Source of the DNA: Buxus sempervirens
Lineage: Eukaryota; Streptophyta; Magnoliopsida; Buxales; Buxaceae
Length of the DNA stretch: 64,000 bases
Direction of reading: 5' to 3'
NCBI GenBank assembly: GCA_947561395.2
Contig: OX387189.1
Span: 23,436,329 to 23,500,328, forward strand
This document shows, piece after piece, positions 7,256-44,801 of this stretch. The notes beneath the pieces are model-generated. The model was not told the origin of the DNA. It saw only the letters and a list, made by a program, of their open reading frames with translations, and ran no database searches. Numbering within the stretch: position 1 is the first letter of the stretch; every line of letters begins with the position of its first letter. The position numbers were made by a program, and so were the translations under genes.

Positions 7256-7346
7256 GGAAGCGTCAAAGAAGCCAAGGAAAGCGAGAAAAGACGTGCTCAG
7301 GGAGTTTTTCAATTAATAAAAGTGTCACAATGATGTTCCCTAGGAG

Positions 7347-7354: not shown

Positions 7355-7375
7355 GAAAAAATCGTAAGACAGTAA

Positions 7376-7505
7376 ATTCCGTAATTATATTACGGGCAAG
7401 GCTCGCCCGTATAGGAATTACGGACACGCCTGACCGTGAAACTTCACGGGCAAAGCACGCCCGTAGTAACTTTACGGGCACAGCCTGCTCGTAGTATAAG
7501 TACGG
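7376..7505 (-). promoter_or_regulatory. Cluster of ACGGGC/GCCCGT palindromes upstream of the antisense DUF7745-like gene
   Basis: Four or five copies of ACGGGC or its partner GCCCGT occur in about 130 bases, several arranged as imperfect inverted repeats with 5-10 bases between arms. The same motif cluster is found in the U3 part of the LTRs of elements 1 and 2. Position just upstream of a TATA-like box suggests a promoter or enhancer module; this is inference. Confidence 0.5.
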
Positions 7506-7712
7506 TTCCTTCGAAAAAATGCAAAAAAGTGGGAAGTTTTAATTTCTTTGTTTCCCTAAGCTTCACCTGTCCCTGTTTTAACATTCATCAGGTAATAAAT
7601 ACTGAAAATAAAGAAGAAAGAACACAAATGGAAATAAATCAAACTTCTTTTATATATATGAATGTTTACATCACTTTTGCAAAAAAAAAATACAAAGATA
7701 CATGGAAGAATC
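7506..7712. other. Intergenic spacer between the two antisense genes
   Basis: About 200 AT-rich bases with no coding signal. They should contain the 3' end of the PMD gene and the upstream edge of the DUF7745-like promoter. Both genes point the same way, so the spacing is tight. Confidence 0.4.
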
Positions 7713-10588: not shown

Positions 10589-12271
10589 CTACGGTTCAAA
10601 TCAGGGAGTTGGTTAATTATTCTTGTTAAAAATTTTTAATTGCTTAATTTTCATTTTAACCAAGATTAATTGATGTGCAAGAAAAGAAAAATGGAGGATG
10701 GAAGAAAAGGAGTTTAATTTTCTGTTTGGAGAAAGCCTATTGTTATATTTATCAAGAAAATATATAAAAATTATATATAGGAAGTTTAGGCTTCTTATAT
10801 ATGAATGTGCTAAGAGTGGATTTTAATCATTTTTTTTTTTTTTTTTTTTTGGTTTCAGGATAAAAGTTCAAGCATACTTGTATTGAGACTGAGGTAAAAC
10901 AAGAAAGGCAAAGTCAAAAGTCTATTTTATTCATGCCAAGACAGTTGGACAAGATGATCAACATCAAATCCAGTCAAGAATCAGTTCATATTAAACCCAT
11001 GAGTGTTCGACTCAAGCTAAGGTTTTAAAGCAAAAATCATGCATTGGTTGGCATTTACTACAATAAGAACACCAAGATGAAGGCATAAACAGATACAAAC
11101 AATATGCTAAATGAGGATGAGCTAATGACAATGATAAATTGTTCCATGATGATCAAGGGAATCTAGAGCATACAACAAAGCAGAAATTCAGTCTTAATCA
11201 GAAAAACTGCAAATATCAGTTCAGACAGCTGGGTACATACATGAATAAAATTCAGACGTTTGGGAAGTTGCTCATTCAATCTGCTAGAAGAAATGCATGG
11301 ACATGCAAGCATCCAAAGCACCAATTTTCGGATGCAACAGAGGCATAAAAATCAAAGCAATACTGAACCATTAAGCAAATCAACAGTTGGGAATATTCAG
11401 GAACTTATCAATCAGGAACCAGGAGTTTGTACAAATCACGAATTCACATTCGGCCAAAATGAGAATACCATAAACATGAAGTGAGGTTCGGCCACTTACC
11501 TGTCTCGATTGAAATTAGAAAGTTTTGCAAGCTAAATCTTACTCCACCAAAGCTTCAAGGATAATTCCCAGTCGTTTGGGGATGATTAGAAGCACACCCG
11601 AAGCTAAGACCACAGTCACGGCAATGGAAGAAGAAGAAATGGGAACCGTAGTCGGGAAACAGGGATTCGCCGGAAGAGAACAGTGGTCGCCGGAAAATGA
11701 GAATGGCCGGAGATAGCAAATGCTGCCGGAGATGAAGTCGGACGCTTGGAGAAGAAGAAGCAAGGACCGGAGAAGAAAGCACGGTCGCGGAGGAATTAGG
11801 GCACAGTGCGAGCAGAAGAGAAAGGGTCGCGGTCGCGAGATTAAGAAGGAGTTCAAAATCCGTAAAATCAGTACGGGCATCAGACGCCCGTGAAAGTACT
11901 ACGGTCCCAGTCGCCCGTGAACCCTCTACGGGCAGGGTCTATCCGTAAGCACAATACGGGCAAAGCCAAATATTGCGTATTTTATCATTTTCTCACAATT
12001 TTTAGGAGATTAATGTTTGTATTAGTTGTAAGTTGCAAGGACTGCCACCTTACCTACTTTTGTTTAAAACTTTTGTCTCAAATCTCACTTCATAGCCCAC
12101 AAGTGCTCAGTGAGAGGAGAGAGGAGGATTTGGCCCTTAAGCTGAGGGATTTCTTAGCAAATCTTCCATAATCAATTCTTTTTTTCAAAAATCATCCATT
12201 TAATCCTTGCAAAGTACAATTGATTATACAAAAATCTCAGAAAGTGCAATTGGTGGGTCTTTTTGCTCTCT
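10589..12271. other. 3' spacer of element 1 / probable leader of the antisense PMD gene
   Basis: No sense gene seen. A T-run lies at about 10831-10852, and a minus-strand TATATAAG at about 10796-10803, some 205 bases before the PMD start. From 11600 to 11860 the + strand is purine-rich with repeated CCGGAGA/CCGGAAA phrases. Read on the minus strand this looks like a pyrimidine-rich plant 5' leader. A cluster of ACGGGC palindromes lies at 11870-11970. From about 11985 onward the sequence matches 42225-42550 of element 2 nearly base for base, so this part is the common pre-LTR region of the family. Confidence 0.45.
11870..11970. promoter_or_regulatory. Second cluster of ACGGGC/GCCCGT palindromes in the 3' spacer of element 1
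   Basis: Within 100 bases there are three GCCCGT and three ACGGGC motifs, forming inverted pairs such as GCCCGTGAAC...ACGGGC. The cluster lies upstream (minus strand) of the pyrimidine-rich stretch that could be the PMD gene leader. It may therefore be the promoter module of that gene, as 7376-7505 is for its neighbour. Confidence 0.4.
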
Positions 12272-12297
12272 GCTTGTAATTGGTTCCAATTACCAGC
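12272..12297 (+). other. Hairpin directly upstream of the polypurine tract of element 1
   Basis: GCTTGTAATTGG, a TT loop and CCAATTACCAGC form a 12-bp stem with one T-G pair. CTCT before it and AGAG within the polypurine tract can extend the stem. Element 2 has the same structure at 42516-42541. Confidence 0.6.
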
Positions 12298-12311
12298 AAA
12301 GAGGGGGCAGC
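12298..12311 (+). other. Polypurine tract of element 1
   Basis: AAAGAGGGGGCAG followed by one C ends directly at the TGTAGAC start of the 3' LTR. This is the expected primer for plus-strand DNA synthesis. The same tract occurs at 42542-42554. Confidence 0.8.
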
Positions 12312-14112
12312 TGTAGACACCCCAAATTGCACTACAAAATGAGAAAATAATAAAAACATGTAATTAGAGCTTAAAACAGGTCAAAAAAGCCTAAAAATAG
12401 AATGAACAGGCTTTGCCCGTATTTTCTTCACGGGCCTATCGCGCCCGAAAGTTATCTACGGGCAGGCGCGCCCGTAGTACCAATACGGTCACTATTGGAC
12501 CGTAGTGCATTTACGGGCATTAAAGACACGTGCAAGTTTTGTCCTTCTCTCGATTTCCGAGCTTTATTTGAAGTCCAAGATATCTTTAAACGAGCGGATT
12601 ATGTCTTTTATTCGCTGAAGTCACCTTGGTTGGCTATGGATGGGCATTATCTCTGTATTTCACTCTATCCTGAGAATCAGGATATATCCTTCTGGACCAG
12701 CCTTGCCCCTGGGTGTGTCTATAAATAGAGGCTCATTCCTCTAGCTAAGGGCCACGAAATTTTGAAGAATCAAAAGCTCCAAGAGAAGGAAAGGAATCCC
12801 TGCTGCTCTGCCTGCTCAATCCAGGTAAGTCCCCTATCCTTTTTTATTTTGTCTTCAATTCTAGAAGTAATAGGATCATCTCTATTGCTGTAGAATAAGG
12901 CCATATCTGTTTTTGTATTCCTAAACCTGCCTCCAAGTACCTCAAGGGTCTCTCTAGCCGTAAAACGTGAAGAGAGAACTAGGGGAAAGGGGAACAGGTG
13001 GATCCCTAGAATAGAACCCTATATCTGTTTTTTTTCCTAGAATAAAGCTTGTGATTGTGTTTGTGTAACCAAACTTATCTCTAAGTACCTCAAGAGTCTC
13101 TCTAGCCGTAAAACGTGAAGAGAGAACTAGGGGAAAAGAGAACAGGTGGATCCGTAGGGTAGACCCCCATGTGCTCTAATATGTGAGATGTGGCTGTTTT
13201 AAATATTCTGATCATGTTTTAATGCTTTTTATGATGAATCTGAATGAATACATGAATCCATGATGTTTATAGCATAAGATCCCCTATTTTTGATAAAATT
13301 TGGATTTTTCACATATTTGCACCTACAGCACTGTTTTCGTGATTTTTGTGGTTTTAGGCTAGGATCTTGGATTTATCATGATCAATATGGTAGATCTGAA
13401 TCCAAAAGCCTAAAAGTAAATTCTAGGGTTTCATGATATGGTTTTTAAATCGTTTTTAATTATTGAGAGAAAACCCTACGGTCTAAATTCTCCCCTTTTG
13501 GTGTTTTTCATCAACGTAGGTATTTTCGGTTTTGATTTTCAGATTTAATGTGAAATTTGGGCTTTACCTATGACCTGGACTATTCAAGTTCAATTTTGAA
13601 ATATTTTATAAAAATCATATTTTTCTAGATTTCTAGAATTTTGACTTGAAGCCAGATTTTTGGATTTTTCACTTTAAATTGATTTTATTTGATTTTATCT
13701 CAATTTTGTTTTGATCATGAAACCCTAGGAATGGTATGATCATGTTTAATAGTTCTGGATCAATCAGACTATTCATATGAAAAAACCATACAATTTTTGT
13801 CTTTTTTGTGATTTCGTGTGATTTTTATAGCAAGCTTTTTCCTTTATTTTAAACATGAACAATACCTGGCAACCACCTTGTGTGGATGAATAGGGGTGCC
13901 TAACACCTTCCCTTGTTCATAACTTAATCCCCTTACCCATCTCTGGTTGTTTTTTTTAGGAGGGATATTTTGCCCTAAAATTTGCCTTTTGTGCTTATTT
14001 AATATTTTGGTGTCCATTCACACCTAGATTGAATGGTGGCGACTCTTTGTTTAATTTAATCCCGTGTGATGATTGAGGAAATCATTAGATTGATTTTTTC
14101 CCATGTCTCACA
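12312..14112 (+). repeat. 3' LTR of element 1 (LTR family A)
   Basis: It begins TGTAGACACCCCAAATTGCA and ends CCCATGTCTCACA, 1801 bp. It matches the LTRs of element 2 across its length but is about 138 bp longer, because the segment around CTCAAG..CTAGCCGTAAAACGTGAAG is present twice, 148 bases apart (12941 and 13089). U3 carries GC-rich palindromes at 12415-12525, including CTACGGGC/GCCCGTAG and TACGGTC/GACCGTA. TATAAATA at 12720-12727 marks the promoter, so R starts about 30 bases later. CATAC follows the end. Confidence 0.9.
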
Positions 14113-14728
14113 CATACCTCAAGGGAGGTAAGTGTAATTTACCCTAAAAAAATGAGAAAATTAAAATGAACCATACGTACTATTCTAATGACTAATAATT
14201 AGTTTCAAATTCCGGTTAAGAGTTAAAAAGTCCTAGGTTCTTGTTTTAATTCCTTGATTTGAGCAATTTTGTTGAACACATATTAGTTGTGAATAATTAT
14301 ATTTGGAATCATGGATCTGATATTGGAATTGCTGGAAATATTTTTGTGTATCTTGGAGTGGGTGAATTTCCTCTCACTGGGATTGAGATGAGATGTTATT
14401 ATGAATTGGAAAGCTTTACTTATTGAATGACATTTTTATTTGTAATTGACTTAATAAATATGTTGAGTGTGTATTGTGTCTAGCGGACATAGTGGTATAT
14501 GAATCCATAGGATAAGTTAAATAGTGAAAAGGTGGTATTTACTTTATTTGGTTACTTTGACTCCATGATACACACTTCCTTTTGTAAGTTAGTTTGCATT
14601 GGAGGGTCCTCAAATACAAATGGGACTCATTTTAGATTTATCTTGCTAGTGAGGCTTACGTCAGTGAGGTTATCTTTGTATATGATGACAATGTGGCTAC
14701 ACCCATGATTGTGATTTAGCTTTGTTGC
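14113..14728 (+). repeat. Repeat fragment related to LTR family C, left of the fold-back LTR
   Basis: No gene. The stretch around 14280-14560 (GGAATCATGGATCT, TATCTTGGAGTG, GTGTCTAGCGGACATAG..ATCCATAG) resembles 18290-18510. The fold-back LTR at 14729-17545 was inserted in it; the continuation is 17551 onward, with GTTGC on both sides. Confidence 0.45.
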
Positions 14729-17545
14729 TGTAGACACCCGAAATTGCATAATAAAAATGAAGAATAATTGGCAAAAATCATTATCTCCTTTGAAACCAGC
14801 ACAAAATTTGAGAAAATAAGCATTTTTCCTTGTATCCGACAACTCAGGTCGGATACAAGCATATCCCTTTGTATCCGACATAAGTTGTCGGATACAAGCA
14901 AACCTTAATGTATCCGACATCATATGTCGGATACATATAGATGCTTGTGTATCCGACCTTATATGTCGGATACATGTTTTTTTGCTCCAAATTAGGGTTT
15001 TCCGAGAGTTTTCACTTTTTACCATCATATCATTCATTAAATGAGTGGAAATCTCGGAAATATCCTTAGGGTTAAGGTTGGTGGGCTCTAGACATTAGCT
15101 TGTGTCTACCATCCCACCAAACCTAACCCTAGCCTTTGCCTATAAATAGGAGGCTCCTCCTCAAGCAAATGACCATTAACTCTTGCCAAGAACCTTTGCC
15201 AAGAAGAGCTCCGAGTGAAGAGGGGAACCGCTGTGGAAGTGCTTCCAGAACCTAGGTAAGCCTCAAACCTCTTTTTAATTTTCTGTTTTTACATTTCTAG
15301 ATCTAGATCTCTTCTTCTACCTTTCTGTAGAATAAGGCCTTGATGTGTGTATGAAAACCATTCCCCGGCTCAAAGTATCTCAAGACTCCCCCTAGCCGTA
15401 AAACGTGAAGGTGGGATCTAGGAGAAACGAGACTGGGGATTGATCCTAGTGCTAGAACCTCTCTTGATTAAGCCTTTTGAATCTATGTAAACCGTTTCAT
15501 ATTCAAAGTACCCCAAGATTATCTTGAAGAACCGTGGTTAACGGGGAGAGAGAACTAAGGGAAACGATAATGGAACGGAACCCTAGGTTGTTTTTTAGAA
15601 CCCTATTCTGATTAATGTGAATGAATGCTATCTTTGTTATGTTGTTGGAATGATTTTTACACCTACACATACATAGCACGTGATTTTGGCGGGATAGGCT
15701 CATATTTCGGATTTATTGCATTTATTGTGACAAATCTGAAATAAATAGCCCCAAGCAATTCTGGAATGTTTTTAAATGATTTTCAAAGGATTTTGATCCA
15801 TCTTGCACGGATTACACACACTTTATCACTATTTGGAGTTGGTTTTCTTCAAAAATGGCTTAACTTGACAGCAACTGTACCCTGACTTCGGACACTCATA
15901 ACTTCATCGTCCGGATGAATTTTGGAGTGATTCTAGAACCATGGGAAAGGTGAGGCTGTCTAGTTTATACCTACCAAATTTCATTAATTTCTATCAAGCA
16001 GATTTTTGACACCTCTCTGTCGAAGTTGATAGGTCAATTCAGATCTGAATACGGAACCTGTCACTTCGACCAAGCGCCATGTGTTCGTCTTAAATCCGAT
16101 TCGAGTGATTTTTGTTTCTGGGCACTCCTTTATGAGTCGATTTTCAAATCCAGTTCATTTCATAATTTTTTGATTCCATTTGTGTTATTGGTAACAGATT
16201 TACTCAGAACTGCTCATCAGCACTTTTCTGGGTAAATCTGTGATCTTCGGGGCTTGTTCGGGGGAACACCCAAGGCACATCCGAATGAATTTTTGTATGA
16301 GGCTAGTTTTATTTGAAATATGGCCATACAGACTTCAATCACACCAAATATCATGAATTTATATGGATCAGATTTTCTAGATGGTTTTCCAAACTTGTCC
16401 ACTTGTCACTTTTAATTATCTCCAGCAGCAATTTTAAAAGAGGCATAACTCCTAGGATTTCAACCGGATTTAATTGAAATTTTGCATGAGTCTCTTATTT
16501 ACCATAATCTTTCAAATGGATTTGGTTTGATTCAATTTAAAATTGGATTTGAATGATTTCAAGACAAATGGCATTATCTTTTACCGAATTTTCCAGATTT
16601 GACTCAACTTGGTTTATGCAATTTTTGCTTTGATTTCCATCTATTGGCGATATTCCAGAAGTGATATTGATATAAAAGAGGATTTAGAATTCGTTTGGAT
16701 TACTCATGTGGACATATCACACATTTGTTTTATCCTTTCTCAAGGTTTTTAATGATTTTAGCAAGCTTTCTCATTTTTTTAGCATGAACAACACTTGGCT
16801 ACCACCTTGTGTGGGTGAATGGGGGTGCCTAACACCTTCCCCCGTTCATAATCTAATCCCCTTATCCATCTTTGGATTTGATTTTCAAGTAGAGTTATTT
16901 TTACTCTAGAATTTGCCTTTTAGCCCTTTTTGCTTATTTCGAATCTTTTGGTGTCCATTCACACCCAAAAATCTGAATGGTAGCGACTCTCCCATATTTA
17001 CGTTTGAGCCCGTGTGTTGACGGAGGGAAATCATCCAGGTGATTTTTCCCATGTGTTCACTCGGAGCTCTTCTTGGCAAAGGTTCTTGGCAAGAGTTAAT
17101 GGCCATTTGCTTGAGGAGGAGCCTCCTATTTATAGGCAAAGGCTAGGGTTAGGGTTGGTGGGATGGTAGACACAAACTAATGTCTAGAGCCCACCAACCT
17201 TAACCATAAGGATATTTCCGAGATTTCTACTCATTTAATGAAGGATATGATGGTAAAAAGTGAAAACTCTCGGAAAACCCTAATTTGGAGCAAAAAACAT
17301 GTATCCGACATATAAGGTCGGATACACAAGCATCTATATGTATCCTACATATGATATGGGATACATTAAGGTTTGCTTGTATCCGACAACTTATGTCGGA
17401 TACAAAGGGATATGCTTGTATCCGACCTGAGTTGTCGGATACAAGGAAAAATGCTTATTTTCTCAAATTTTGTGTTGGTTTCAAAGGAGATAATGATTTT
17501 TGCCAATTATTCTTCATTTTTACTATGCAATTTGGGGTGTCTACA
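14729..17545 (+). mobile_element. Fold-back LTR (family B): near-complete LTR fused to an inverted copy of its own first 490 bp
   Basis: From 14729 (TGTAGACACC) to 17055 this is a family B LTR in + orientation, missing only the last six bases (CTCACA). At 17056 the sequence turns round: 17056-17545 is the reverse complement of 14729-15218, ending GGTGTCTACA. Both outer ends are therefore the 5' LTR terminus. GTTGC is present at 14724-14728 and again at 17546-17550, a perfect 5-bp target duplication, so the structure integrated as a unit. The two arms differ by several substitutions, so it is not recent. TATAAATA lies at 15141-15148, with its mirror at 17127-17134. The arm ends about 70 bases past the TATA box. 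Confidence 0.85.
14832..14973 (+). promoter_or_regulatory. Four GTATCCGAC...GTCGGATAC palindromes in U3 of LTR family B
   Basis: Hairpins lie at 14832-14856, 14871-14895, 14910-14934 and 14949-14973. Each has 9-bp arms GTATCCGAC and GTCGGATAC and a 7-base loop that differs each time. They sit about 170 bases upstream of TATAAATA, the same slot as the ACGGGC palindromes of LTR family A. The mirrored set is at about 17300-17445 and another in the solo LTR at about 52558-52700. Confidence 0.75.
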
Positions 17546-19929: not shown

Positions 19930-20960
19930 AGATTGTCGGTTTTGCTGCTCGGGAATTTCGTCAGCTCATATCTTCTTCATTCGGGCTCCGATCTGGGCAA
20001 ACTCAGTTGCATTAGAATTGTATCGGAGCCCTCTATCCAATGACATAGGAGTAGGCCTCCGGATCGGATTTTAGCAGAAAGTCAACTTTTGGCTCTGCTC
20101 AAGTTTGACCGCCCGCAGAACCTTCATCCGGACCCCGATTCCTGCAAACTCAGTTGCGTTGGAACCGTGTCGAGATTCTCTATCCAATGACCTAGGGGTA
20201 GACCTCCGGATCGGATTTTAGCAGAAAGTCAACTTTTGGCTCTGCTCAGGTTTGACCGCCCGCAGAACCTTCATCCGGACCCCGATTCCTGCAAACTCAG
20301 TTGCGTTGGAACCGTGTCGAGATTCTCTATCCAATAACCTAGGGGTAGGCCTCTGGATCGGATTTTAGCAGAAAGTCAACTTTTGGCTCTGCTTAAGTTT
20401 GACCGCCCGCAGAACCTTCATCCGGACCCCGATTCCTGCAAACTCAGTTGCGTTGGAACCGTGTCGAGATTCTCTATCCAATGACCTAGGGGTGGGCCTC
20501 CGGATCGGATTTTAGCAGAAAGTCAACTTTTGGCTCTGCTCAGGTTTGACCGCCCGCAGAACCTTCATCCGGACCCCGATTCCTGCAAACTCAGTTGCGT
20601 TGGGACCGTGTCGAGATTCTCTATCCAATGGTATAAAGCTAGGTACTTGGCACGAAATTCGAGGAAAAGTCAACTCTTGGCTTTTCCTTAAGTTTGACCG
20701 CCCGCAGAACCTTCATCCGGACCCTGATTCCTGCAAACTCAGTTGCGTTGGAACCGTGTCGAGATTCTCTATCCAATGGTATAAAGCTATGTACTTGGCA
20801 CGGAATTTGAGGAAAAGTCAACTCTTGGCTTTTCCTTAAGTTTGACCGCCCGCAGAACCTTCATCCGGACCCTGATTCCTGCAAACTCAGTTGCGTTGGA
20901 ACCGTGTCGAGATTCTCTATCCAATGGCATAAAGCGAGGTGGCCAATTTTCACTTGATCA
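19930..20960. repeat. Tandem array, period 147 bp, about seven units
   Basis: Units contain AGTCAACTTTTGGCT, TTTGACCGCCCGCAGAACC, TTCATCCGGACCC, CTCAGTTGCGTTGGAACC and GATTCTCTATCCAATG. The unit boundary GCAGAAAGTCAAC occurs at 20074, 20221, 20368 and 20515, then in a variant form near 20662 and 20809, so the period is constant at 147 bases. The first unit (from about 19930) is the most diverged. The last two complete units share the variant GGTATAAAGCTA..TACTTGGCACG, showing recent unit-by-unit copying. Confidence 0.85.
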
Positions 20961-24026: not shown

Positions 24027-24860
24027 TGATTTAGATTGTTCTGCTCAAGTCCCACATATGCTACGCTCGAGTCCCATGTATCCTATGCTCGAGTCCCTGA
24101 TATCCTACGCTCGAGTCCCATGTCCATAAAATACCTTGAGTTCTATATTAATGCGCTTGAGCCCTACGTAAACTAGCTCGAGTCTCACGTATACAACACT
24201 CAGGTCCCACATATCCTAAGCTCAAGTCCTTTGTAAAATACCTTGAGTCCCATATTAATGCACTTGAGTCCTACATATGCACCACGCGAGTCCTACATAT
24301 CCTACACTCGAGTCCTACATATCCTACGCTTGAGTCCCACATATCCTAAGCTCGAGTCCTTTGTAAAATACCTCGAGTCCCATATTGATGCGCTTGAGTC
24401 CCACGTATCCTACGCTCGAGTCCCACATATCCTACGCTTGTGTCCCATATATCCTAAGCTCGAGTGCTTTGTAAAATACCTCGAGTCCCATATTGATGTA
24501 CTTGAGTCCCACGTATCCTACGCTCGAGTCCCACATATCCTACACTCATGTCCCACATATCCTAAGCTCGAGTCCTTTGTAAAATACCTAGAGTCCCATA
24601 TTGATGCGCTTGAGTCCTACGTAAACTAGCTCGATTCCCACGTATCCTATGCTTAAGTCCCACATATCCTACGCTCGAGTCCCACATATCCTAAGCTCGA
24701 GTCCTTTGTAAAATACCTCGAGTCCCATATTGTGCGCTCAAGTCCCACGTATCCTACGGTCGAGTTCTTAGTAAAATAGCTTGAGGCCCATATTGATGCA
24801 CCTAAGTCCTACGTAAACTACGCTCGAGTCCTTAGTAAAATGGATTTTTTTTTATGGACC
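24027..24860. repeat. Tandem array of a 21-22-bp unit with CTCGAGTCC core, higher-order period 108 or 130 bp
   Basis: Nearly 40 copies of a unit of the form TACGCTCGAGTCCCACATATCC cover about 830 bases. The phrase TTGTAAAATACCTCGAGTCCC marks higher-order units at 24231, 24361, 24469, 24577 and 24706, spaced 130, 108, 108 and 129. That is five or six monomers of about 21.6 bases. Because 108 is divisible by three, one frame stays open as a 36-residue repeat, but this is a by-product. The array ends about 100 bases before the TATA box of the GRF gene. Confidence 0.85.
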
Positions 24861-32835: not shown

Positions 32836-33293
32836 CAATTTAACTTGCCGAAATTGATTCTTGACTGAACCAAGGGGGATTTCATGTCTTGAGGTTTATA
32901 CCACTTAACCAATCACTTGTTTGGGAACCTTGGAACCTGCATTACCTATTAAATTCCTAGAGGAAAATCTAGTGGCAAATTTTTAAAGACTTCTAAGGTT
33001 GAGTTTAGGTTATTTGTATGTGTTGTGCTGGATACCAAAACAATGGGAGTTCCTAATTAGTTTTCCCTTAAATTTATACACTGTTTTGATTGAGAAATTA
33101 TTAACTTCTGGTTTCACTTGTTTGGAAATTTCTGAATGTATTGTAAGGTTTTTCTTGGTATGAATAACTGTGTTTTGTATTCAAATGGCATGTGTTGCGG
33201 AAATGAGAAAATACTGAAAGTATTTGAGATACTGTTTGGTCCAGAGGGACAGGTGATGAACTGTGATGAGTTATACATGATGTGGAATGAATG

Positions 33294-34956
33294 TGTAGAC
33301 ACCCCAAATTGCACTAAAAATGAGAAAATAATTGAAAATATTAATTGGGATTTGAAACAGGTCAAAAAAGTGTAAAATCTGGCCAAATTGTTCATGACCG
33401 TATTTTGTTTACGGACTGGTCATACCTGCAGTTGATATACGGTCACGGCGTGCCCGTATTAATAATACGGGCAGGGCGCGACCGTAATACATATACGGTC
33501 ACGGGGGTCTTTGTGCGAATTTTACCTTTTTGATTTTTGAGCCTTATCTGCACCCAAATATCTCTCTTGGATAAGCGAATTCTCTTATTTATCTGTTCGA
33601 ATTATCTCATTTATCCTTGTGGATAAAGGATTGGCATGATCTTGTGTTTAACTCAAACTGAAACTCTATCTTGCCAAACCTTGGACCAACCATACCCCTG
33701 TGTTTGCCTATAAATAGAGGGTCTCTCCTCTAGCTAAGGGCCACGAAATTTTGAAGAATCAAAAGCTCCAAGAGAAGGAAAGGAATCCCTGCTGCTCTGC
33801 CTGCTCAATCCAGGTAAGTCCCCTATCCTTTTTTATTTTCTGTCTTCAATTTTAGAAGTAATAGGATCATCTCTATTGCTGTAGAATAAGGCCATATCTG
33901 TTTTTGTATTCCTAAACTTGTCTCCAAGTACCTCAAGGGTCTCTCTAGCCGTAAAACGTGAAGAGAGAACTAGGGGAAAAGAGAACAGGTGGATCCGTAG
34001 GGTAGACCCCCATGTGCTCTAATCTGTGAGATGTGGTTGTTTTAAATATCTTGATCATGTTTTAATGCTTTTTATGATATATCTGAATGAATAACATGAA
34101 TCTATGATGTTTATAGCATAAGATCCCCACTTTTTGATAAAATTTGGATTTTCCACATATTTGCACCTACAGCACTGTTTTCGTGATTTTTGCGATTTTA
34201 GGCTAGGATCTTGGATTTATCATGATCAATATGGTAGATCTGAATCCAGAAGCCTGAAAATAACTTCTAGGGTTTCATGAGATGGTTTTTAAATTGTTTT
34301 TCATTATTGAGATAAGACCCTACGGTCTAAATTCTCCCCTTTTGGTGTTCTTCATCAACGTGGGTATTTTTGGTTTTGATTTTCAGATTTAATGTGAAAT
34401 TTGGGCTTTATCTATGTCCTGGAATATTCAAGTTTAATTTTGAAATATTTTATAAAAATCATATTTTTCTAGATTTCTAGAATTTTGACTTGAAGCCAGA
34501 TTTTTGGATTTTTCACTTTAAATTGATTTTATTTGATTTTATCTCAATTTTGTTTTGATCATGAAACCCTAGGAATTGTATGATCATGTTTGAAAGTTCT
34601 AGATCAATCAGACTATTCATATGAAAAAACCATACAATTGTCTTCTTTTTGTGATTTTGTGTGATTTTTATAGCAAGCTTTTTCCTTTATTTTAAACATG
34701 AACAATACCTGGCAACCACCTTGTGTGGATGAATAGGGGTGCCTAACACCTTCCCCTGTTCATAACCTAATCCCCTTACCCATCTCTGGTTGTTTTTTTT
34801 ATGAGGGATATTTTTACCCTAAAAATTGCCTTTTGTGCTTATTTAATATTTTGGTGTCCATTCACACCTAAATTGAATGGTGGCGACTCTTTGTTTTATA
34901 TAATCCCGTGTGATGATTGAGGAAATCATTGGATTGATTTTTTCCCATGTCTCACA
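33294..34956 (+). repeat. 5' LTR of element 2 (family A)
   Basis: TGTAGACACC...TGTCTCACA, 1663 bp. TATAAATA at 33709-33716. U3 holds a nested palindrome at 33438-33486. The same sequence occurs as 3' LTR 9262 bases to the right, with identical length and the same 62-codon chance frame. It lacks the internal 148-bp duplication of the element 1 LTR. Confidence 0.95.
33438..33486 (+). promoter_or_regulatory. Nested palindrome in U3 of LTR family A
   Basis: The inner arms TGCCCGTATTA and TAATACGGGCA (33451-33473) pair perfectly around one base. The outer arms TACGGTC (33438-33444) and GACCGTA (33480-33486) pair as well. The copy in the 3' LTR is at 42700-42748. It lies about 220 bases upstream of the TATA box. 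Confidence 0.7.
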
Positions 34957-34958
34957 AC

Positions 34959-34977
34959 TGGCGACTCTGCTGGGGAC
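34959..34977 (+). other. Primer binding site of element 2, tRNA-Arg type
   Basis: TGGCGACTCTGCTGGGGAC starts two bases after the 5' LTR. It is complementary to the 3' end of plant tRNA-Arg (ACG) as I remember it, with one mismatch. A tRNA-Arg primer is known for Ogre elements. Confidence 0.75.
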
Positions 34978-36189
34978 TTGTGGATTTGAGCCTTTTTGGT
35001 GTTTTTGTTCATGTTTTTGATATTTTTGGATTTGCTTGCTATTTTGTGTTCTTAAGCTTGTTGAGTATATTTTAAATCTGAATTATTGCTTAGGAATTAA
35101 TGGGGGTAGAAACATGCTTAACTTTGATTTATAGGATTGTTTCTACAAACATGCGTAGGGGAGGTCCGTTTGGTTGAACCATGCTTATTTCTTGCTATAT
35201 TTTTATGATAGCATGTTTTAATTTTCAGCATGATCTCCATGATGATTTTGGGTGTATAACATGATCATATGTTTCCATGATAGATGATTTTTATGAGCAT
35301 GTTGTTTTGGGTGCTATAGGATTGCCTTATTTACTTGTTTATTTTAAATATGCTTTCCTATTATGCCTTGGTTTGTTTATGCATGGCTGCGAAAAGAGTG
35401 GCAAGGGTTTGGGACGTTGTGAATGCACCCTATTTTTTACAATGCACTGTGCACCTTTTATTTTTTACACAGCCTACCCTTAACCTATAGGAAGTTGAAC
35501 CCGAATGTGTGTAGCTTGGCGCAACGAGGTCGATACTTCGGAAAGCGAAAGTGAAAACATTCACCTTAAAACTTTGAGCTAATGATGTGATGATAATGTG
35601 GATCTGGGATTCTGGTCATCACTAGGCTTGAGTACTAAGTTGCCATTAAGCCAAAACCCAAAACCCCTACGCTTGAAGGTGGAGTTACACGTTTTCGGCT
35701 AAATTACACAATTACATGGGAATATGGGGTTGTATGATTGTGGGAAGGCCGTGTGCATGGCTTACAAACCAGGGCATAATGCGGATGCCATATTGAAGGT
35801 AAACAAGGTAACAAGGTAATCCTATTGATCTGCATTATTTTCATGTCATAGGGGTGTCATGGTACCCATTGGTTCGGGATAAAATTGGTCCCAAAATTTA
35901 CATGTTTTAAAATTGGTGCAGCCCATAGGAAGAGTCTCTAACTCTGTTTAGAATCAATCCTACCCTATGTTCATACAAGAGGCAACAAAAGGGTACCAAA
36001 TTCTTGAGTATGGTGTCAATTTGGAGGGTGCATGTGCCTTCCTAAGCATGTGTTTTAGCAAAAAGGCCAAGGTCCACTTTGGGACAGTTTAGAAGCTCTG
36101 CAATGGGTGAACCGTACGTTTGGATGAACAATGAAAGTGATCAGACCATGTAAAAACTGGAAAAACATAACAAGGTTCCGTAAAACCGC
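34978..36189 (+). other. Leader of element 2, first part
   Basis: No coding frame of note. This is the untranslated leader after the PBS, expected to hold packaging and dimerisation signals. I see no strong repeats here. Confidence 0.4.
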
Positions 36190-36312
36190 ATTTAGTACAC
36201 GGGCTGGGCTTGCCCGTATTAGTTATACGGGCTAGGCTCGCCCGTGTTTTCCATACGGTCACGGCTTGCTCGTAATTTGAATACGGGCAGGGCTGGACCG
36301 TACTGTGTATAC
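36190..36312 (+). promoter_or_regulatory. ACGGGC/GCCCGT palindrome cluster in the leader of element 2
   Basis: ACGGGCTGGGCTTGCCCGT, ACGGGCTAGGCTCGCCCGT, ACGGTCACGGCTTGCTCGT and ACGGGCAGGGCTGGACCGT follow one another. Each is an imperfect inverted repeat of 6-7 bp around 5-7 bases. It is the same module as in the U3 of this family, here lying 1.2 kb inside the element and just before the hairpin array. Confidence 0.6.
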
Positions 36313-36477
36313 GGTTTTCTCGGAATATTCAACTTTAATCAGTTTTTTCCACTAAAATCTTCCTTTAACCCTTAAATAATGATAAAGGGAAACAAGTTTG
36401 AATAAAATGCTTCAAAGAAAAAACAAACAAACAAAATAATTAAAAGAAAAAAATGTGAGAGAAAGGTTCCTTGGGCT

Positions 36478-37397
36478 TCTGAAAGCCTTTGAATTTCAGA
36501 CTTTTTCTCAAAAAAAACTCTTTGGGCCTCTGAAAGCCTTTGAATTTCAGACTTTTCCTCAAAAATCCTTTGGGCCTCTGAAAGCCTTTGAATTTCAGAC
36601 TTTTCCTCAAAAAACTCTTTGGGCCTCTGAAAGCCTTTGAATTTCAGACTTTTTCTCAAAAATCTTTTGGGCCTCTGAAAGCCTTTGAATTTCAGACTTT
36701 TTTCAAAAATATCCCTGGGCCTCTGAAAGCCTTTGAATTTCAGATCCTTTTTCCTTTTCGAGACCTGTTGGAAGCCCTAGAATATTCCAACAAACCTTTT
36801 TGGGCCGTCTAAAAGCCTCTGAATTTTAGACAAATCATTTCTTTGGGCCATCTAAAAGCCTCTGAATTTTAGATACAACCTTTTTGGGTGATTTGAAAGC
36901 CTTTGAATTTCAAACATCAACCTTTTTGGGCCGTCTAAAAGCCTCTGAATTTTAGACAAATCATTCCTTTGGGCCGTCTAAAAGCCTCTGAATTTTAGAC
37001 AAATCATTTCTTTGGGCCATCTAAAAGCCTCTGAATTTTAGACATAACTCCTTTGGGCCGTCTAAAAGCCTCTGAATTTTAGACAAATCATTTCTTTGGG
37101 CCGTCTAAAAGCCTCTGAATTTTAGACAAATCATTTTTTTGGGCCGTCTAAAAGCCTCTGAATTTTTGACAATTGATTTCTTTGGGCCGTCTATAAGCCT
37201 CTGAATTATAGACACATATCCTTTGGGCCTCTGAAAGCCTTTGAATTTCAGACATTTTTCAAAAATATCCTTGGGCCTCTGAAAGCCTTTGAATTTCAGA
37301 CTTTTTCCAAAAACACCCCTGGGCCTCTGAAAGCCTTTGAATTTCAGATCCTTTTCTCTTTTTGTAGGACCCGTTGGAAGCCTTAGAATATTCCAAC
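36478..37397 (+). repeat. Array of 21 hairpins with constant loop and covarying stems in the gag leader
   Basis: Hairpins start at 36478, 36529, 36577, 36626, 36674, 36722, 36767, 36807, 36850, 36892, 36933, 36976, 37019, 37060, 37103, 37146, 37189, 37230, 37278, 37326 and 37373, spaced about 40-51 bases. Each has arms of 7-8 bases around a loop GCCTTTGAA or GCCTCTGAA (GCC(C/T)TAGAA in the GTTGGAA type) and is usually preceded by TTTGGGCC. Arms come in matching sets: TCTGAAA/TTTCAGA, GTCTAAAA/TTTTAGAC, ATCTAAAA/TTTTAGAT, TTTGAAA/TTTCAAA, GTCTATAA/TTATAGAC and GTTGGAA/TTCCAAC. Changes in one arm are matched in the other. The array ends 185 bases before the gag ATG. Confidence 0.93.
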
Positions 37398-37582
37398 AAT
37401 TCTAAAAAAAAGAAGCAAATAAAGAAAGAAACAAATCCAAACTCGTGTTCACCCAGCTTGCACATAGGCATACATAGGCATGTGAATGAGATTAAATTGG
37501 CACTGATATTTTCACTTTATTTTTCCAGGTACCAAATACACTCGCAATCATATCTCTTGTAACCAGATCAAGAGCTCGCGCC

Positions 37583-39268
37583 ATGAATCCCATTGAGAAT
37601 GAAGCTGATGCTCCTCACCCAGATTTAGCCCTGCTTCAGGAGCAGGTGGCAGGACTAGCCCGAATGCTAGAGAACATACTATCAGTGCAGGCCGAACAAG
37701 TCGAAGCCCAGAACCAAGCCTCCACTTCCAACCAAGCACCTCCACCTCAAATCAATATTCCACCTCCGGTTCAACCTATTCCTGAACCCACCCCGGAACC
37801 TATACTGATCAGGGAGGAGATGGTTGAGTCTGAGAAAGAGAATGAAAAAGAAAAGATGAGGGATGAAATAGAAAGAAAATTCATGCACAGGCTGGAGATG
37901 ATCCAGGATGAAATGAGGGAGGTGAAAGGGATACGTAACTTTGGGGGCACCAATTTTGAAGATTTGTGTCTATACCCCGATGTATGTCTGCCGGCCAAGT
38001 TTAAATGCCCAGATTTTGAAAAATATGATGGCACTGGCTGCCCAATGAGCCATTTGAAGTTATACTGCGGGGCTTTATGCCAGTTTGGCCGGGATGACGG
38101 CATACTAATTCAACTATTCCAGAGGAGTTTAACTGGAGCTGCTTTGAGGTGGTTTACCACTTTGGATCATGGGAAAATAAGAAGGTGGAAGGATTTAGCA
38201 GATTCCTTTTTGGCACAATACAAGTTTAACTCGGAGATCGTGCCAGACCGGTATGACATGATGAGGATGACAAAGAGAAATGATGAGACCATAAGGCAAT
38301 ATGCTCAAAGGTGGAGGGAGTTGGCTGCTCAAGTCAAGCCACCCGTGGGAGAACCAGAAATGATTTCAACTTTCATCATGACCTTGGGGCAACCATTTTA
38401 TAGTCACTTGGTGGGTCAAACTACCACCAACTTTGCTGCCCTAGTGCAAGTGGCAGATAGAATTGCAGATGGGATCAAGTCTGGGAAAATAGCTGATTAC
38501 TCTGCAGTGTTGAGCCAGGAAGCTTCCACTACTTTCTCTACACAGAAAAATGAGAATGGTAATGGAAGAATAAAGAATGAAGAAAGGAGAGAAGCAGAAG
38601 TGAATATGGTACAACTTCCGAGGGAACCCTTTCAAATCAATGTCCATCCACCTCCTATCAAGCCAACCCATCAAGTTCCTTTGCTGCCTATCCAAATTAA
38701 TGTCCCTTCTGCACAGCCTGTGAAGGAGGAAATAGAAGTAAGGAAGAGAAGGGAATTTTCTAAACTGCCTATGAGACCATCTGAGCTTTTGCCTACTTTA
38801 CTTCAAAAGGGTTATGTGACTTTGAGGTTGCCAAATCCTCATGCAAACAAGGGGAAGAATTATGATTCATCTGCAATCTGTGATTATCATATGAGCACTC
38901 CAGGGCATACCACATATCGTTGCTTGGCCCTAAAGCATGCAATCCAGGATTTGTTGGATAATAACTCCTTATCATTCAATTTAGTCACTCTCATCCCACC
39001 TATTGATAACAATAGGGCAGGCAGCTCAAATGCAATAGGGGCAATTTTCTCTGGAAAAAAAAGATTTGACCCTTCTCAGCTTATCGCTCCTATTGGTCCA
39101 ACAGTCGGGGTTTATCTTGAAAGAAATGCTCCTGGTTATGAGCAGGAAGGCTTGCCTTACTCAGAAGGAGAAAGAAAGTATCTGAAAAAGGAAGAAAAGT
39201 CAATTTTTGCCTTTGAGAACAGGGGCAGTTTTCGAACTCCCATGTTCTCTGAAAAGAAACCTGCATAA
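37583..39268 (+). CDS. gag: Gag of element 2
   Basis: A 561-codon frame without stops. Residues 1-110 are acidic, Pro/Glu-rich and partly coiled coil. The retrotransposon Gag core at about 130-300 has CLYPDVCLPAKFKCPDFEKY, LRWFTTLDHG, FLAQYKFNS, YAQRWRELA and FIMTLGQPFY, all typical of Tat/Ogre Gag. A zinc-knuckle-like CDYHMSTPGHTTYRC followed by LKHAIQDLLD lies at about 431-456. The protein should form the particle and package the RNA. The frame ends SEKKPA-stop where the PR-RT linker of element 1 ends, so protease sequence has been lost. The ATG at 37583 follows a splice-acceptor-like TTTTTCCAG at 37521-37529. Confidence 0.92.
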   Translation: MNPIENEADAPHPDLALLQEQVAGLARMLENILSVQAEQVEAQNQASTSNQAPPPQINIPPPVQPIPEPTPEPILIREEMVESEKENEKEKMRDEIERKFMHRLEMIQDEMREVKGIRNFGGTNFEDLCLYPDVCLPAKFKCPDFEKYDGTGCPMSHLKLYCGALCQFGRDDGILIQLFQRSLTGAALRWFTTLDHGKIRRWKDLADSFLAQYKFNSEIVPDRYDMMRMTKRNDETIRQYAQRWRELAAQVKPPVGEPEMISTFIMTLGQPFYSHLVGQTTTNFAALVQVADRIADGIKSGKIADYSAVLSQEASTTFSTQKNENGNGRIKNEERREAEVNMVQLPREPFQINVHPPPIKPTHQVPLLPIQINVPSAQPVKEEIEVRKRREFSKLPMRPSELLPTLLQKGYVTLRLPNPHANKGKNYDSSAICDYHMSTPGHTTYRCLALKHAIQDLLDNNSLSFNLVTLIPPIDNNRAGSSNAIGAIFSGKKRFDPSQLIAPIGPTVGVYLERNAPGYEQEGLPYSEGERKYLKKEEKSIFAFENRGSFRTPMFSEKKPA

Positions 39269-41350
39269 GAAGAATGCACATTTCCTGAGGATCCTAAGGA
39301 GCCTTGTTCTCAGGAAGTGATTTCAATAAAGGCTCTTCAAAAAAAAAAAGATTTTCCCTTTAACATTTTTCTAAAAAAAAAAAAAAAAGTTTTCAGCAAG
39401 GTCCTTTTACTTATGAATCATATTTCCTATTGAATTTTATTAAGTTGAATATGACTTCGACATTGGGCTCAATTTTGAGACCAAAATCAAAGAAAAAGAC
39501 ATTTTATACAAAAATTCAAATCTTTTAAATGTCATGAGAAGAATATTTTGCAAAATTATGAAGTGACCAATTTTATGGCCTTTGGAACCAAAGATGACCC
39601 ACAGTCTTCAACAGAAAAGATAGAAGAAGATTTGAAGTTTCTTCATTAGAATACAGAAATAATCGCACCACTTGCTGATTCGTTCAAAGGAAAGTTGATA
39701 ATATTGTTTGAAGAAATTTTAGGGCTTTGCATTTGAAAATATGGGAGAAGATTTGACATTTTCATTGGAAATGGAATTGGGCATCATTTGATGGAAAGAA
39801 TCCAAATTCAAAAGATTGATCAAAAGGTGAAGAGCTTGTTCATAACAGAGGTTCTATTTGAAGATGCTTTTATCTTGACAGAAGGTGATTAAGAAGAAAA
39901 AAAAAGAGAAGAAAAAATCCTGAGCCAGTCATGTAGTACAACTTTACCAAGTCTAAAAATTCAATTTTTCTTAAAATGATAAGAGGCCTTTCTTTCTTAT
40001 ATCCCCAAAAATTTTAAAATCCCTAGTTAAACCCTTTGAGCTTGATACATTTTTCCAAGTAACCTAAACTGAGAATTGTAACCCCACACTGGGGCAAATT
40101 TATTAAGGCATAAAAAAGGGAATGAAGGGACAATTATTGAAGTTCAAAAGGGATTTTGAATATGTTTTCAGAAAATGGGGCAAAGAAATGAGAAAAAAAA
40201 AGAAGAAAAAGAAAGAAAAAAAAGAAAAAAAAAAGATAATCAAATGCTATTTGGAGAATGTCTTCAAAATTGTGAAGAAAAGAATGGAAAAAAAAGAAGT
40301 TCAATACTGGAGAATAAGTTTCAAATGAAGAAATCAAATTGAGGGAAGAAATTCATTACTGGGGCAATTTTATATTCATTCCAAGGGAAGAAATGCCTTA
40401 AAAATTACAATTTCAGTTAACCCATTTGATCATATGATATTTGAGCCTTTTATTCCTTTTCTTTCTAAACAAACACCAAGCCTTCGTTTCGTCCCATTCA
40501 TAAGTCCTCTTTGATTAAGAAATTTTGAATTAAGGCAGCTTTGACTATATAGTTGCTGGTGATGAAGGATAAAAAAAAAAAGGGAGAAAAGAAAAAGAAA
40601 ACGGAAAAAAAAATGGAAGGAAATGTAGTGAAAACCCGGGAGGGCGCTACATGGCAAATAATCAGCTATCTACAAGAAGGAAATCGTCAGAGAGGAAAGT
40701 CCAAAATTGGCATAGATCCAGATGAAGTCCTCATGTTGGTGGTTATTTTAAGATACAGTCACTCTTCAAGTGATTGAGGAAAATTCTCTTTTCAAGACTG
40801 AAGCAACATAATCAGAACTATGATATGAATCATCCATGAACAAGTTGATGGCCATCAAAATTGCCATTAGGAAATTGTTACTGAAGTTGAAGTCATAAAT
40901 TCTCATACCATGGATGCAATGGAGAAACAATTGTTCTTCAATTGGATGAAGGAATATGTCTTTCTAGACTGGGGCAAAATAGTCAGATTGAAAGAGTTGT
41001 CATATCAGGAGCATTAATTGACAAGCCGATGGTCATGGGAATGATTCTAAAGGTTCCAAAGGTTGATTTTGGTGTTTCTGCATTTTCTGAAATAATCTTC
41101 TCATTATTCAACTTGATTTTAATTCTTTTGGACTATATGCTAATAAGTGATTGGATCATTTTTTTTTAAAAAAAAATATAAAAACACAAAAAAGCAAAAA
41201 AATATATTTTTGGCCTATGATGAGAATCTATATCTTTTCATAAAACATTGGTTTTGCAAGCATTAGAGAATTCTGAGGCCACTAGTATAAAACCTATTTT
41301 CTTATGTTTGCATTTGCATTCTTCTATTAGGGTTTCTTTTTGGCAAAGGT

Positions 41351-41382
<32 letters not shown>

Positions 41383-42515
41383 AAAAAAGAAAAAAAAGAG
41401 AAAAAGGAAAAAAGAGGATCATCTCTACTGAGGGGCAAATACTTCTTCAAATAATCAAAACCGGGGCATGTTCAGTGTCTTTCCTTCTAGGTTTTCATTG
41501 GAATGAATTCCGACATCTGGAAGAAGCAATCAAGCTTTAGTCTTCGAATTTGAAAGAAAAAAAAAAAAAAAAGAGGCTTCAAAGCAATGGCATGTTTTCT
41601 TCGTTAAACAAGGGTTCCCAATTCTTCAATCATGAAGAAGGATTTTACTGGGGCAGCAAGAAGGCATGAAAGACAGATCATGGGTTGTAAAGGCATGAGG
41701 TTAGATCAACAGATCATGATCCATCAATCAAGATGAGGGCATTCACTTGGGCAATTAAAAAGCATGAAGACAAGTTATGGGCAATAAGAGCACATACATC
41801 GTTATTGAGAGAGCAAGATGATAAAGAAGCAAAAGCAAGTTCCAAAATATTCAAGCACAAGTTCGGGCATCAAATGGCACCCAGGTATATCAAATAAGAA
41901 AATCAATCAGGAAAATTCAAAAAGTGAAAAACATCAAAATCAATTGAGTTTGCAGTGGTCAATTTTAAATCCACATTCTTTTCAAAAATTGCTTGTCTCA
42001 GATTTCTTTTCATAGCCACGAGAGCTCCAAGAAATCTGAGATAAGGAACAGACGCCACCCCACTTCAAGCAGGGGTTTCATTGGCTATCTTCGAATCCAT
42101 GTTTTTATCATTTCTTTGTTGGACCAAAGCAAGTTCAATTAATGAGATGTTTTTCAAATGTGTAATTTTGAGTTGTGTCTGTTCATTGTGCTACAACTGC
42201 AGGCCACCCAGAAAAATTGTCTTTTTCATCATTTTCTCCACACTTTTTGGGAGATTAATGTTTATATTAGTTGTAAGTTGCAAGGATTGCCACCTTACCC
42301 ACTTTTGTTTAAAAATTTTGTCTCAAATCTCACTTCATAGCCACGAGAGCTTAGTGAGAGGAGAGAGGAGGATTTGGCCCTTAAGCTGAGGGACTTCTTA
42401 GCAAATCTTCCACAATCAATTCTTTTTTTATAAAATCATCCATTTGATCCTTGCAAAGTGCAATTGGTTAGACAAAGATCTCAAAAAGTGCAATTAGTGG
42501 GTCTTTTTGCTCTCT
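39269..42515 (+). other. Degenerate pol scraps and 3' spacer of element 2
   Basis: 39281-39470 matches 940-1130 of element 1, the segment between linker and RT, but with small gaps. 39870-39930 recalls the pol end at 4440-4500. 39980-40050 matches 4551-4620. Everything from RT to integrase is missing. From 40100 to 41600 the sequence is A-rich with long A tracts (40192-40240, 41349-41415, 41550-41572). 42200-42515 matches the pre-LTR region of element 1. There is no frame of meaning. Confidence 0.7.
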
Positions 42516-42555
42516 GCTTGTAATTGGTTCCAATTACCAGCAAAGAGGGGGCAGC
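42516..42555 (+). other. Hairpin plus polypurine tract of element 2
   Basis: GCTTGTAATTGG-TT-CCAATTACCAGC forms a hairpin (42516-42541), directly followed by AAAGAGGGGGCAG (42542-42554) and the LTR. It is identical in layout to element 1. This is the start site for plus-strand DNA synthesis. Confidence 0.75.
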
Positions 42556-44218
42556 TGTAGACACCCCAAATTGCACTAAAAATGAGAAAATAATTGAAAA
42601 TATTAATTGGGATTTGAAACAGGTCAAAAAAGTGTAAAATCTGGCCAAATTGTTCATGACCGTATTTTGTTTACGGACTGGTCATACCTGCAGTTGATAT
42701 ACGGTCACGGCGTGCCCGTATTAATAATACGGGCAGGGCGCGACCGTAATACATATACGGTCACGGGGGTCTTTGTGCGAATTTTACCTTTTTGATTTTT
42801 GAGCCTTATCTGCACCCAAATATCTCTCTTGGATAAGCGAATTCTCTTATTTATCTGTTCGAATTATCTCATTTATCCTTGTGGATAAAGGATTGGCATG
42901 ATCTTGTGTTTAACTCAAACTGAAACTCTATCTTGCCAAACCTTGGACCAACCATACCCCTGTGTTTGCCTATAAATAGAGGGTCTCTCCTCTAGCTAAG
43001 GGCCACGAAATTTTGAAGAATCAAAAGCTCCAAGAGAAGGAAAGGAATCCCTGCTGCTCTGCCTGCTCAATCCAGGTAAGTCCCCTATCCTTTTTTATTT
43101 TCTGTCTTCAATTTTAGAAGTAATAGGATCATCTCTATTGCTGTAGAATAAGGCCATATCTGTTTTTGTATTCCTAAACTTGTCTCCAAGTACCTCAAGG
43201 GTCTCTCTAGCCGTAAAACGTGAAGAGAGAACTAGGGGAAAAGAGAACAGGTGGATCCGTAGGGTAGACCCCCATGTGCTCTAATCTGTGAGATGTGGTT
43301 GTTTTAAATATCTTGATCATGTTTTAATGCTTTTTATGATATATCTGAATGAATAACATGAATCTATGATGTTTATAGCATAAGATCCCCACTTTTTGAT
43401 AAAATTTGGATTTTCCACATATTTGCACCTACAGCACTGTTTTCGTGATTTTTGCGATTTTAGGCTAGGATCTTGGATTTATCATGATCAATATGGTAGA
43501 TCTGAATCCAGAAGCCTGAAAATAACTTCTAGGGTTTCATGAGATGGTTTTTAAATTGTTTTTCATTATTGAGATAAGACCCTACGGTCTAAATTCTCCC
43601 CTTTTGGTGTTCTTCATCAACGTGGGTATTTTTGGTTTTGATTTTCAGATTTAATGTGAAATTTGGGCTTTATCTATGTCCTGGAATATTCAAGTTTAAT
43701 TTTGAAATATTTTATAAAAATCATATTTTTCTAGATTTCTAGAATTTTGACTTGAAGCCAGATTTTTGGATTTTTCACTTTAAATTGATTTTATTTGATT
43801 TTATCTCAATTTTGTTTTGATCATGAAACCCTAGGAATTGTATGATCATGTTTGAAAGTTCTAGATCAATCAGACTATTCATATGAAAAAACCATACAAT
43901 TGTCTTCTTTTTGTGATTTTGTGTGATTTTTATAGCAAGCTTTTTCCTTTATTTTAAACATGAACAATACCTGGCAACCACCTTGTGTGGATGAATAGGG
44001 GTGCCTAACACCTTCCCCTGTTCATAACCTAATCCCCTTACCCATCTCTGGTTGTTTTTTTTATGAGGGATATTTTTACCCTAAAAATTGCCTTTTGTGC
44101 TTATTTAATATTTTGGTGTCCATTCACACCTAAATTGAATGGTGGCGACTCTTTGTTTTATATAATCCCGTGTGATGATTGAGGAAATCATTGGATTGAT
44201 TTTTTCCCATGTCTCACA
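42556..44218 (+). repeat. 3' LTR of element 2 (family A)
   Basis: 1663 bp, TGTAGACACC...TGTCTCACA, the same length as the 5' copy and without visible difference in the parts compared. TATAAATA at 42971-42978. Followed by GAATG, the target duplication. Confidence 0.95.
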
Positions 44219-44372
44219 GAATGGTTTTATTTTGATGTTGAAATTGAGATTATACAATGTTTTACTGTTTTGGTTTAGCTTGTCCTAGATCCAAAGTCTA
44301 AGCTTAGTAATGTAATGTTATTGTTGGTTGTTGAAATTGTATGGCCTTGAGTGTTGCCACGACCGGTGTAGA

Positions 44373-44801
44373 GCAACCAGAAACCCTGAGTTGGCCTGGT
44401 TGTCAATGCAGAAACCCGGGGAGTAGGCCTGCATTGGATAACGAAACCCTGAGTAGGCCATCATTTCAGAGTTTCCGAAACCCTGAGTAGGCCGGAACTG
44501 TGTACATGGAGGTGTGGAGTGTCTACTTGGCATGTTTAATTTATCAACTAAACAATAGTCATGACATTAACCAATGTTGGTATTTGATTTTGTTTGACGT
44601 GATATGTTTTATTCGCTGGTTTGTTGGTATTTATGGTTCATGGAATATTGTTTACCGATTATTGGGTATTGTACCTCTCGCCGGTGTAGAGCAGCCAGAA
44701 ACCCTGAGTAGGCCTGGTTGTCAATGCAAAAACCCGGGGAGTAGGCCTGCATTGGATGACGCAGTCATTTCAATATCCGAAACCCTGAGTAGGCCGGATA
44801 T
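44373..44801 (+). repeat. Array of six hairpins with constant loop and variable stems in the family C LTR
   Basis: Hairpins lie at 44373-44403, 44404-44436, 44470-44499, 44691-44721, 44722-44754 and 44773-44801. The loop is AAACCC(T)GAGTAGGC or AAACCCGGGGAGTAGGC. The arms change in pairs: GCAACCAG/CTGGTTGT, CAATGCAG/CTGCATTG, GTTTCCG/CGGAAC (one bulge), GCAGCCAG/CTGGTTGT, CAATGCA/TGCATTG and ATATCCG/CGGATAT. The block occurs as two related sets about 320 bases apart. Confidence 0.8.

Follow-up and report, generated by a model that had tools for sequence, protein, structure and literature searches.

A tandem hairpin array in the gag leader of a plant LTR retrotransposon as a candidate RNA packaging or dimerisation signal

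Upstream of gag in an LTR retrotransposon of Buxus sempervirens, 21 loop-anchored stem-loops occupy positions 36478-37397 of the window (the whole 64,000-nucleotide stretch of DNA that was analysed). We put at roughly 40% the probability that this array consists of selected sense-strand RNA hairpins, situated in a putative intron and acting as a multivalent packaging or dimerisation signal. The proposal starts from computed features: the hairpins themselves, the difference in conservation between stems and loops on one side and spacers on the other, paired differences between classes and families, and splice-like sites that flank the array. In the proposed mechanism, short sense-strand hairpins would have expanded in tandem within the leader that precedes gag in a large group of Tat-like Ty3/gypsy retrotransposons, with selection maintaining both hairpin formation and loop sequence. 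As part of a probable 5'-UTR intron, the array would be carried by unspliced genomic RNA only. If the RNA folds in cells and the intron is spliced, as we infer, each hairpin would offer a near-constant loop (GCC..GAA) to Gag, the presumed partner, or to another partner protein, and 15-42-fold repetition would raise avidity. Genomic RNA would thereby be distinguished from spliced gag mRNA, packaging being the step presumably served.

Little is known of the way in which LTR retrotransposons of plants select genomic RNA. According to one review, decapping as the origin of packaging substrates lacks direct evidence in plants (PMC12786077). A hairpin array upstream of gag, whose 15-base core AAAGCCTYTGAATTT is present in 30,894 copies across the 676.5-Mb genome (the reversed pattern occurs 4 times), offers a concrete candidate for such a signal, with length variants that occur naturally. 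If the proposal is true, a tandem repeat in a retroelement leader would exert its effect as RNA, and would be neither junk nor a set of DNA sites. A broader version of the same idea, which we consider rather improbable, is that plant Tat-like elements carry a repeated packaging code in the form of a modular, multi-class array of variable copy number in a 5'-UTR intron; unspliced RNA would be recognised by way of tens of low-affinity hairpins with drifting stems and near-fixed loops.

The preliminary description of this DNA, which had reported 21 stem-loops with 7-8-bp stems and a mismatch in only one or two of them, proved accurate. Twenty of the 21 units carry 7 or 8 uninterrupted Watson-Crick pairs; the unit with its loop at 37154 is mismatched at pair 5, and that at 37027 has an A.C at the outermost pair 8 with its 7 inner pairs intact. 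Among the 20 units, the loop has 9 nt in 18 and is an 11-nt GCCYTAGAATA in 2. The array ends 185 bases before the gag ATG, as had been stated. When perfect short inverted repeats are counted in 500-bp bins across the window, the two highest counts (11 and 9 of 115) fall in the array, and the bins ranking after them have 8 and 7. Part of it has arisen by block duplication, with 36617-36793 and 37221-37399 being 92% identical. Predicted energies of -2.5 to -8.0 kcal/mol (14 strings) indicate that single hairpins are weak. Folding, which had been suggested as a check, gave a modest z-score of -3.1 for the array and -2.7 for the array of a related leader (L072), but a stretch of that same leader outside the array also scored -2.7, so that fold z-scores fail to separate array from leader. 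A known RNA family was sought with an Rfam scan of 33000-44500 and rejected, the one match being a weak SNORD93 hit outside the array (28.7 bits against a gathering threshold of 60).

Table 1. Positions of the hairpin types and of the surrounding features of the focal element in the window
Feature	Position	Strand	Basis or remark
5' LTR (TG...CA)	33294..34956	+	100% identity to 42556-44218; GAATG immediately before
Probable primer binding site, TGGCGACTCTGCTGGGGAC-like	34958..34978	+	directly 3' of LTR; sequence
Three tandem splice-donor-like sites (GT at 35799, 35808, 35816)	35796..35821	+	top GT scores
CGG/CCG 28-bp palindromic repeats, distinct from the array	36192..36314	+	just upstream of hairpin array
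Six type A hairpins, TCTGAAA-GCCTTTGAA-TTTCAGA	36478..36744	+	loop-anchored stem search
Type E hairpin, TGTTGGAA-GCCCTAGAATA-TTCCAACA (stem type GTTGGAA/TTCCAAC with 11-nt loop)	36766..36792	+	loop-anchored stem search
Ten hairpins of types B (GTCTAAAA/TTTTAGAC), C (ATCTAAAA), D (TTTGAAA/TTTCAAA) and F (GTCTATAA/TTATAGAC)	36807..37213	+	
Three type A hairpins	37230..37348	+	loop-anchored stem search
Gag-proximal type E hairpin	37373..37397	+	E class also in families X, V and L081
Splice-acceptor-like pyrimidine tract ending CAG	37509..37528	+	sequence, scoring
gag ORF, 561 aa	37583..39268	+	PF03732, E 1.7e-12
3' LTR	42556..44218	+	GAATG immediately after

The element that houses the array spans 33294-44218 and is bordered at both ends by the target-site duplication GAATG. 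Its LTRs, which the preliminary description had called identical-looking, are indeed 100% identical over 1663 bp each. The segment directly downstream of the 5' LTR, which we take to be the primer binding site, was recovered with at most 2 mismatches in 5/5 fetched family copies. A tblastn search at E 1e-4, for which a related element at the window's left edge supplied the pol ORF as query, detected no pol in 39268-42555, and the same interval holds no ORF of 200 aa; the focal element thus appears to have inserted recently and to be non-autonomous. In the left-edge element (249-14112), the pol ORF (899-4525) includes RT, RNase H, RVT_3 and integrase, and the LTR remnants match the focal LTR at 94.8% identity over 1059 bp and 93.9% over 329 bp. 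We read RVT_3 as the second (archaeal-type) RNase H of the Tat-lineage order. On this reading, the Tat-type succession of RT, RNase H, second RNase H and integrase is seen in the left-edge element and not in the focal one.

Putative splice sites bracket the array. The donor-like trio ranks first to third by GT score in the window leader, as it does in 5/5 fetched copies, and is also present in L066-L071; both donor and acceptor calls are predictions. An acceptor AG before GTAYYA was found in 46/49 main-family copies, at 54 nt from the ATG in 30 and 53 nt in 16, with 3 copies lacking the pattern, and L072 has a similar site. Lying between conserved donor-like (35799-35816) and acceptor-like (37528) predicted sites, the array is probably intronic and retained only in unspliced RNA; a retroviral-type packaging signal would be expected downstream of a splice donor. 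The possibility of coding sequence across the putative exon junction was considered and rejected, because the frame is not kept between the 54-nt and 53-nt classes and because third codon positions are not the most variable over the 36 nt that precede the ATG (0.041, 0.094 and 0.012 by codon position, 49 copies). The stretch from the LTR to gag contains 49 ATGs, of which 33 lie upstream of the donor and 16 inside the proposed intron.

Conservation was assessed within the main family of copies. A genome search with the array DNA, in which the best 40 of 2300 candidates were scored, gave 30 loci, and a gag search, in which the best 78 of 11,806 were scored, gave 30 further loci; both lists comprise nearest relatives and hence are no random sample. 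After removal of 4 overlapping and 7 near-identical copies, the 60 loci yielded 49 copies with 1268 units; the false anchors ATTTTATG and ATCTTATG were removed before counting, and 8 odd-type units were left out of the per-type columns. The fetched stretches contain 15-42 units per copy (median 26), and 1129/1268 units retain at least 7 pairs. In ungapped unit columns, arm positions deviate by 0-4.7%, except for one outermost base at 16.5%, while spacer columns deviate by 2-67% (type A), 1-47% (type B) and 1-22% (type F). This contrast favours selection on the stem-loop, although the anchoring of units on their loops, with up to 1 mismatch allowed, overstates loop conservation, and indels inflate the far spacer columns.

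The preliminary description had based its argument on stems that change in matched pairs. Such differences are real between unit types and between families, but the window's own paired changes derive largely from a few old unit types spread by duplication. Types A, B, F and E are found in 27-30 of 30 loci, so their differences represent few old events; together with the block duplication within the array, this goes part of the way towards the alternative, foreseen in that description, that duplication alone accounts for the paired changes. Within types, double changes occur at only 2/23 pair positions in the 49 copies. Pair 6 of type A shows 10 double changes (9 pairing) and 33 one-sided ones, and pair 8 of type B shows 7 double (5 pairing) and 71 one-sided, 65 units being changed on the 5' side only and 6 on the 3' side only; the corresponding expectations of 1.17 and 2.14 double changes assume independence, which the 49 copies do not have. 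The change from GTC/GAC to ATC/GAT, at this pair 8, had been presented as compensated and is thus usually one-sided in the family. Over the seven inner pairs, 9 compensated double changes and 1 uncompensated one stand against 50 one-sided G.U, 45 A.C and 36 other mismatches. Newer stem changes are therefore mostly one-sided, and the similar numbers of G.U and A.C, together with the scarcity of double changes, would be expected if inserted copies decayed with no selection on the RNA. The main-family pattern looks like neutral post-insertion decay laid over old paired differences. Pair 3 is A-T in 408 units, T-A in 158, T-T in 2 and A-A in 2, a double transversion with rare intermediates, and the F stem-loop with T-A at pair 3 occurs 2,269 times genome-wide (control, 0). 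Paired transitions at mirrored CTG/CAG sites could account for two of the differences between G-C and A-T, but not for that between A-T and T-A in type F.

Hairpins with other stems persist in a second family of the same genome. In family X (L072 and L074-L076, 4 copies), the gag core shows 80% identity over 173 aa (one copy, L077). The leader can be aligned to the window over the array, the pre-gag stretch and one 97-nt piece, at about 60-73% for pieces of at least 75 nt. The stem classes of this family are TTCTAAA/TTTAGAA, CTGGAA/TTCCAG, CYTGAAA/TTTCARG, CTTGGAA/TTCCAAG, T (loop RCTTTTA), W and E. At least 6 pairs, with stems unlike those of the window, are formed in 57/67 loop-anchored units, many of them tandem copies (18/20, 17/19, 12/13, 6/8 in class T and 4/7 in class E). 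In shuffle tests, which ignore relatedness among alignment rows, class T (7 rows) reached a paired share of 98.4% of its cells, compared with 90.2% after shuffling, and a covariation score of 0.317 against 0.154 (0/500 shuffles as high; at most 0.089 when slid). One of its pairs shows three Watson-Crick states (C-G, U-A and A-U), and 8 of its cells are of G.U type on the sense strand against 1 unpaired cell. Its 2 doubly changed pairs were matched by 153/500 shuffles and its pair types by 362/500. Class E (14 rows) gave 88.4% paired cells against 80.8% and a score of 0.227 against 0.090 (0/500 as high; at most 0.120 when slid). The observed number of doubly changed pairs in this class was reached by 19/500 shuffles, and in a second test its pairing of 0.952 was not above every shuffle, the highest being 0.976.

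Selection on hairpin structure, as originally suggested, is thus supported mostly by the family X stems and the multi-state pairs, and less by the main family with its largely one-sided newer changes. Families V and Z and L081 were compared through one or two leaders each. In family V (L080), E hairpins alternate with W hairpins, and 4/11 E units exceed 5 pairs while 7/11 have only 5 (one unit of L081, which has a single E-class hairpin, is included). In family Z (L078 and L079), the corresponding place in the leader is taken by an array of short repeats, inside which no 6-pair hairpins were found. Taken together, the family X hairpins, the weaker ones of family V and the hairpin-free array of family Z indicate that hairpin formation has been kept over lineage time, though not universally. 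The family Z leader array is dense in TTTCCACAAGTTGGACCA-type short repeats in both of its leaders.

We rank packaging or dimerisation ahead of a role in leader processing, and this in turn ahead of DNA-level sites and of copying artefacts. That the hairpins govern processing, either restraining splicing of the putative intron or aiding nuclear exit of unspliced RNA, is unlikely in our view; the array takes up much of the intron 35799-37528, and a review describes export elements in mouse IAP and MusD as well as the spliced plant elements Ogre and EVADE (PMC12786077), yet the number of repeats ranges widely, from 15 to 42 units. We are more sceptical of palindromic protein-binding sites arrayed at the DNA level, as an enhancer, insulator or chromatin element whose position in the leader would be incidental. 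Such arrays have precedents in the 5'UTR tandem repeats of Drosophila copia, gypsy and ZAM, which are reported as DNA-binding arrays (PMC7168160, excerpts), and in the palindromic repeated motifs of Sirevirus LTRs (PMC2829016, excerpts). However, the half-sites vary by class and family while their complementarity stays, the loop is asymmetric and conserved, and G.U pairs on the sense strand are retained in class T.

Those stable G.U pairs also speak against an array without function, in which self-templated copying during reverse transcription or repair would have perfected palindromes that block duplication then spread. This explanation, which we doubt to the same degree as the DNA-site one, accommodates the few founder types common to nearly all copies, the duplicated block, the mostly one-sided newer changes and the variable number of units; it fits poorly with type A and B spacers far more diverged than stems and loops, and with the persistence of hairpins on other stems in family X. 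A role in translation, through shunting or internal entry, or in supplying small RNAs seems very improbable. The 49 upstream ATGs make plain scanning of unspliced RNA unlikely, but 33 of them would persist in a spliced RNA, so splicing alone cannot explain gag translation either, and stems of 7-9 bp are probably short for the usual dicer products.

Among known systems, retroviral Psi lies near the 5' end of the genome. Like the predicted hairpins of the array, Psi and Ty1 signals involve structured RNA near the 5' end, with palindromes tied to dimers and packaging, but they comprise few distinct structures rather than tens of tandem copies (PMC4974528, in part). Tat/Ogre Ty3/gypsy elements of plants likewise have variable tandem repeats in non-coding parts, pol-less copies included; theirs are placed beyond gag-pol, within the 3' UTR, and hairpins go unmentioned in the text available, whereas the present repeats precede gag and are built of hairpins (PMC7004042). 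Ogre and EVADE are plant LTR retrotransposons whose transcripts are partly spliced, with introns between gag-pro and rt or inside gag-pol, in contrast to the pre-gag intron proposed here (PMC6317226 and PMC12786077, extracts). The Drosophila gypsy/copia arrays share the location between LTR and gag but are described as DNA-binding sites, unlike stems that covary between classes (PMC7168160, partial text). Sireviruses, too, are plant LTR retroelements with many copies of a palindromic motif and intervening bases; they belong to Ty1/copia, their motifs lie mainly in the LTR upstream of the TATA box with a CGG-CCG core, and the reading is at DNA level (PMC2829016, partial text). The array units have no CGG-CCG core and lie outside the LTR. 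Closer to the Sirevirus RM boxes, as excerpted there, are the focal element's own CGG/CCG palindromic 28-bp repeats (ACGGGC..GCCCGT and TACGGTC..GACCGTA), which occur just upstream of the array and in both LTRs (33426-33520 and 42697-42766). A pre-gag hairpin array in plant elements was not found in the literature searched, subscription papers being mostly outside its scope, nor is this array described in the portions available of PMC7004042, PMC7168160, PMC2829016, PMC4974528, PMC6317226, PMC12786077 and PMC12218528.

Searches of viral contigs returned L001, a single match without an array, and no confirmed relative for gag; genome contigs returned L002. An exact 23-base match to the E hairpin, in a phage ORF of a metagenome contig (L082:2463-2485), was set aside as chance; its length makes chance unlikely, yet no array surrounds it. 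Elsewhere in the window, antisense plant-mobile-domain ORFs (5480-10196) lie inside the left-edge element. The bins 14501-15000 (7) and 17001-17500 (8) are rich in inverted repeats, with 14728-15219 and 17546-17056 being mutual inverted copies at 97%, and further tandem arrays are present at 19975-20940 (about 147 bp apart) and 24043-24841.
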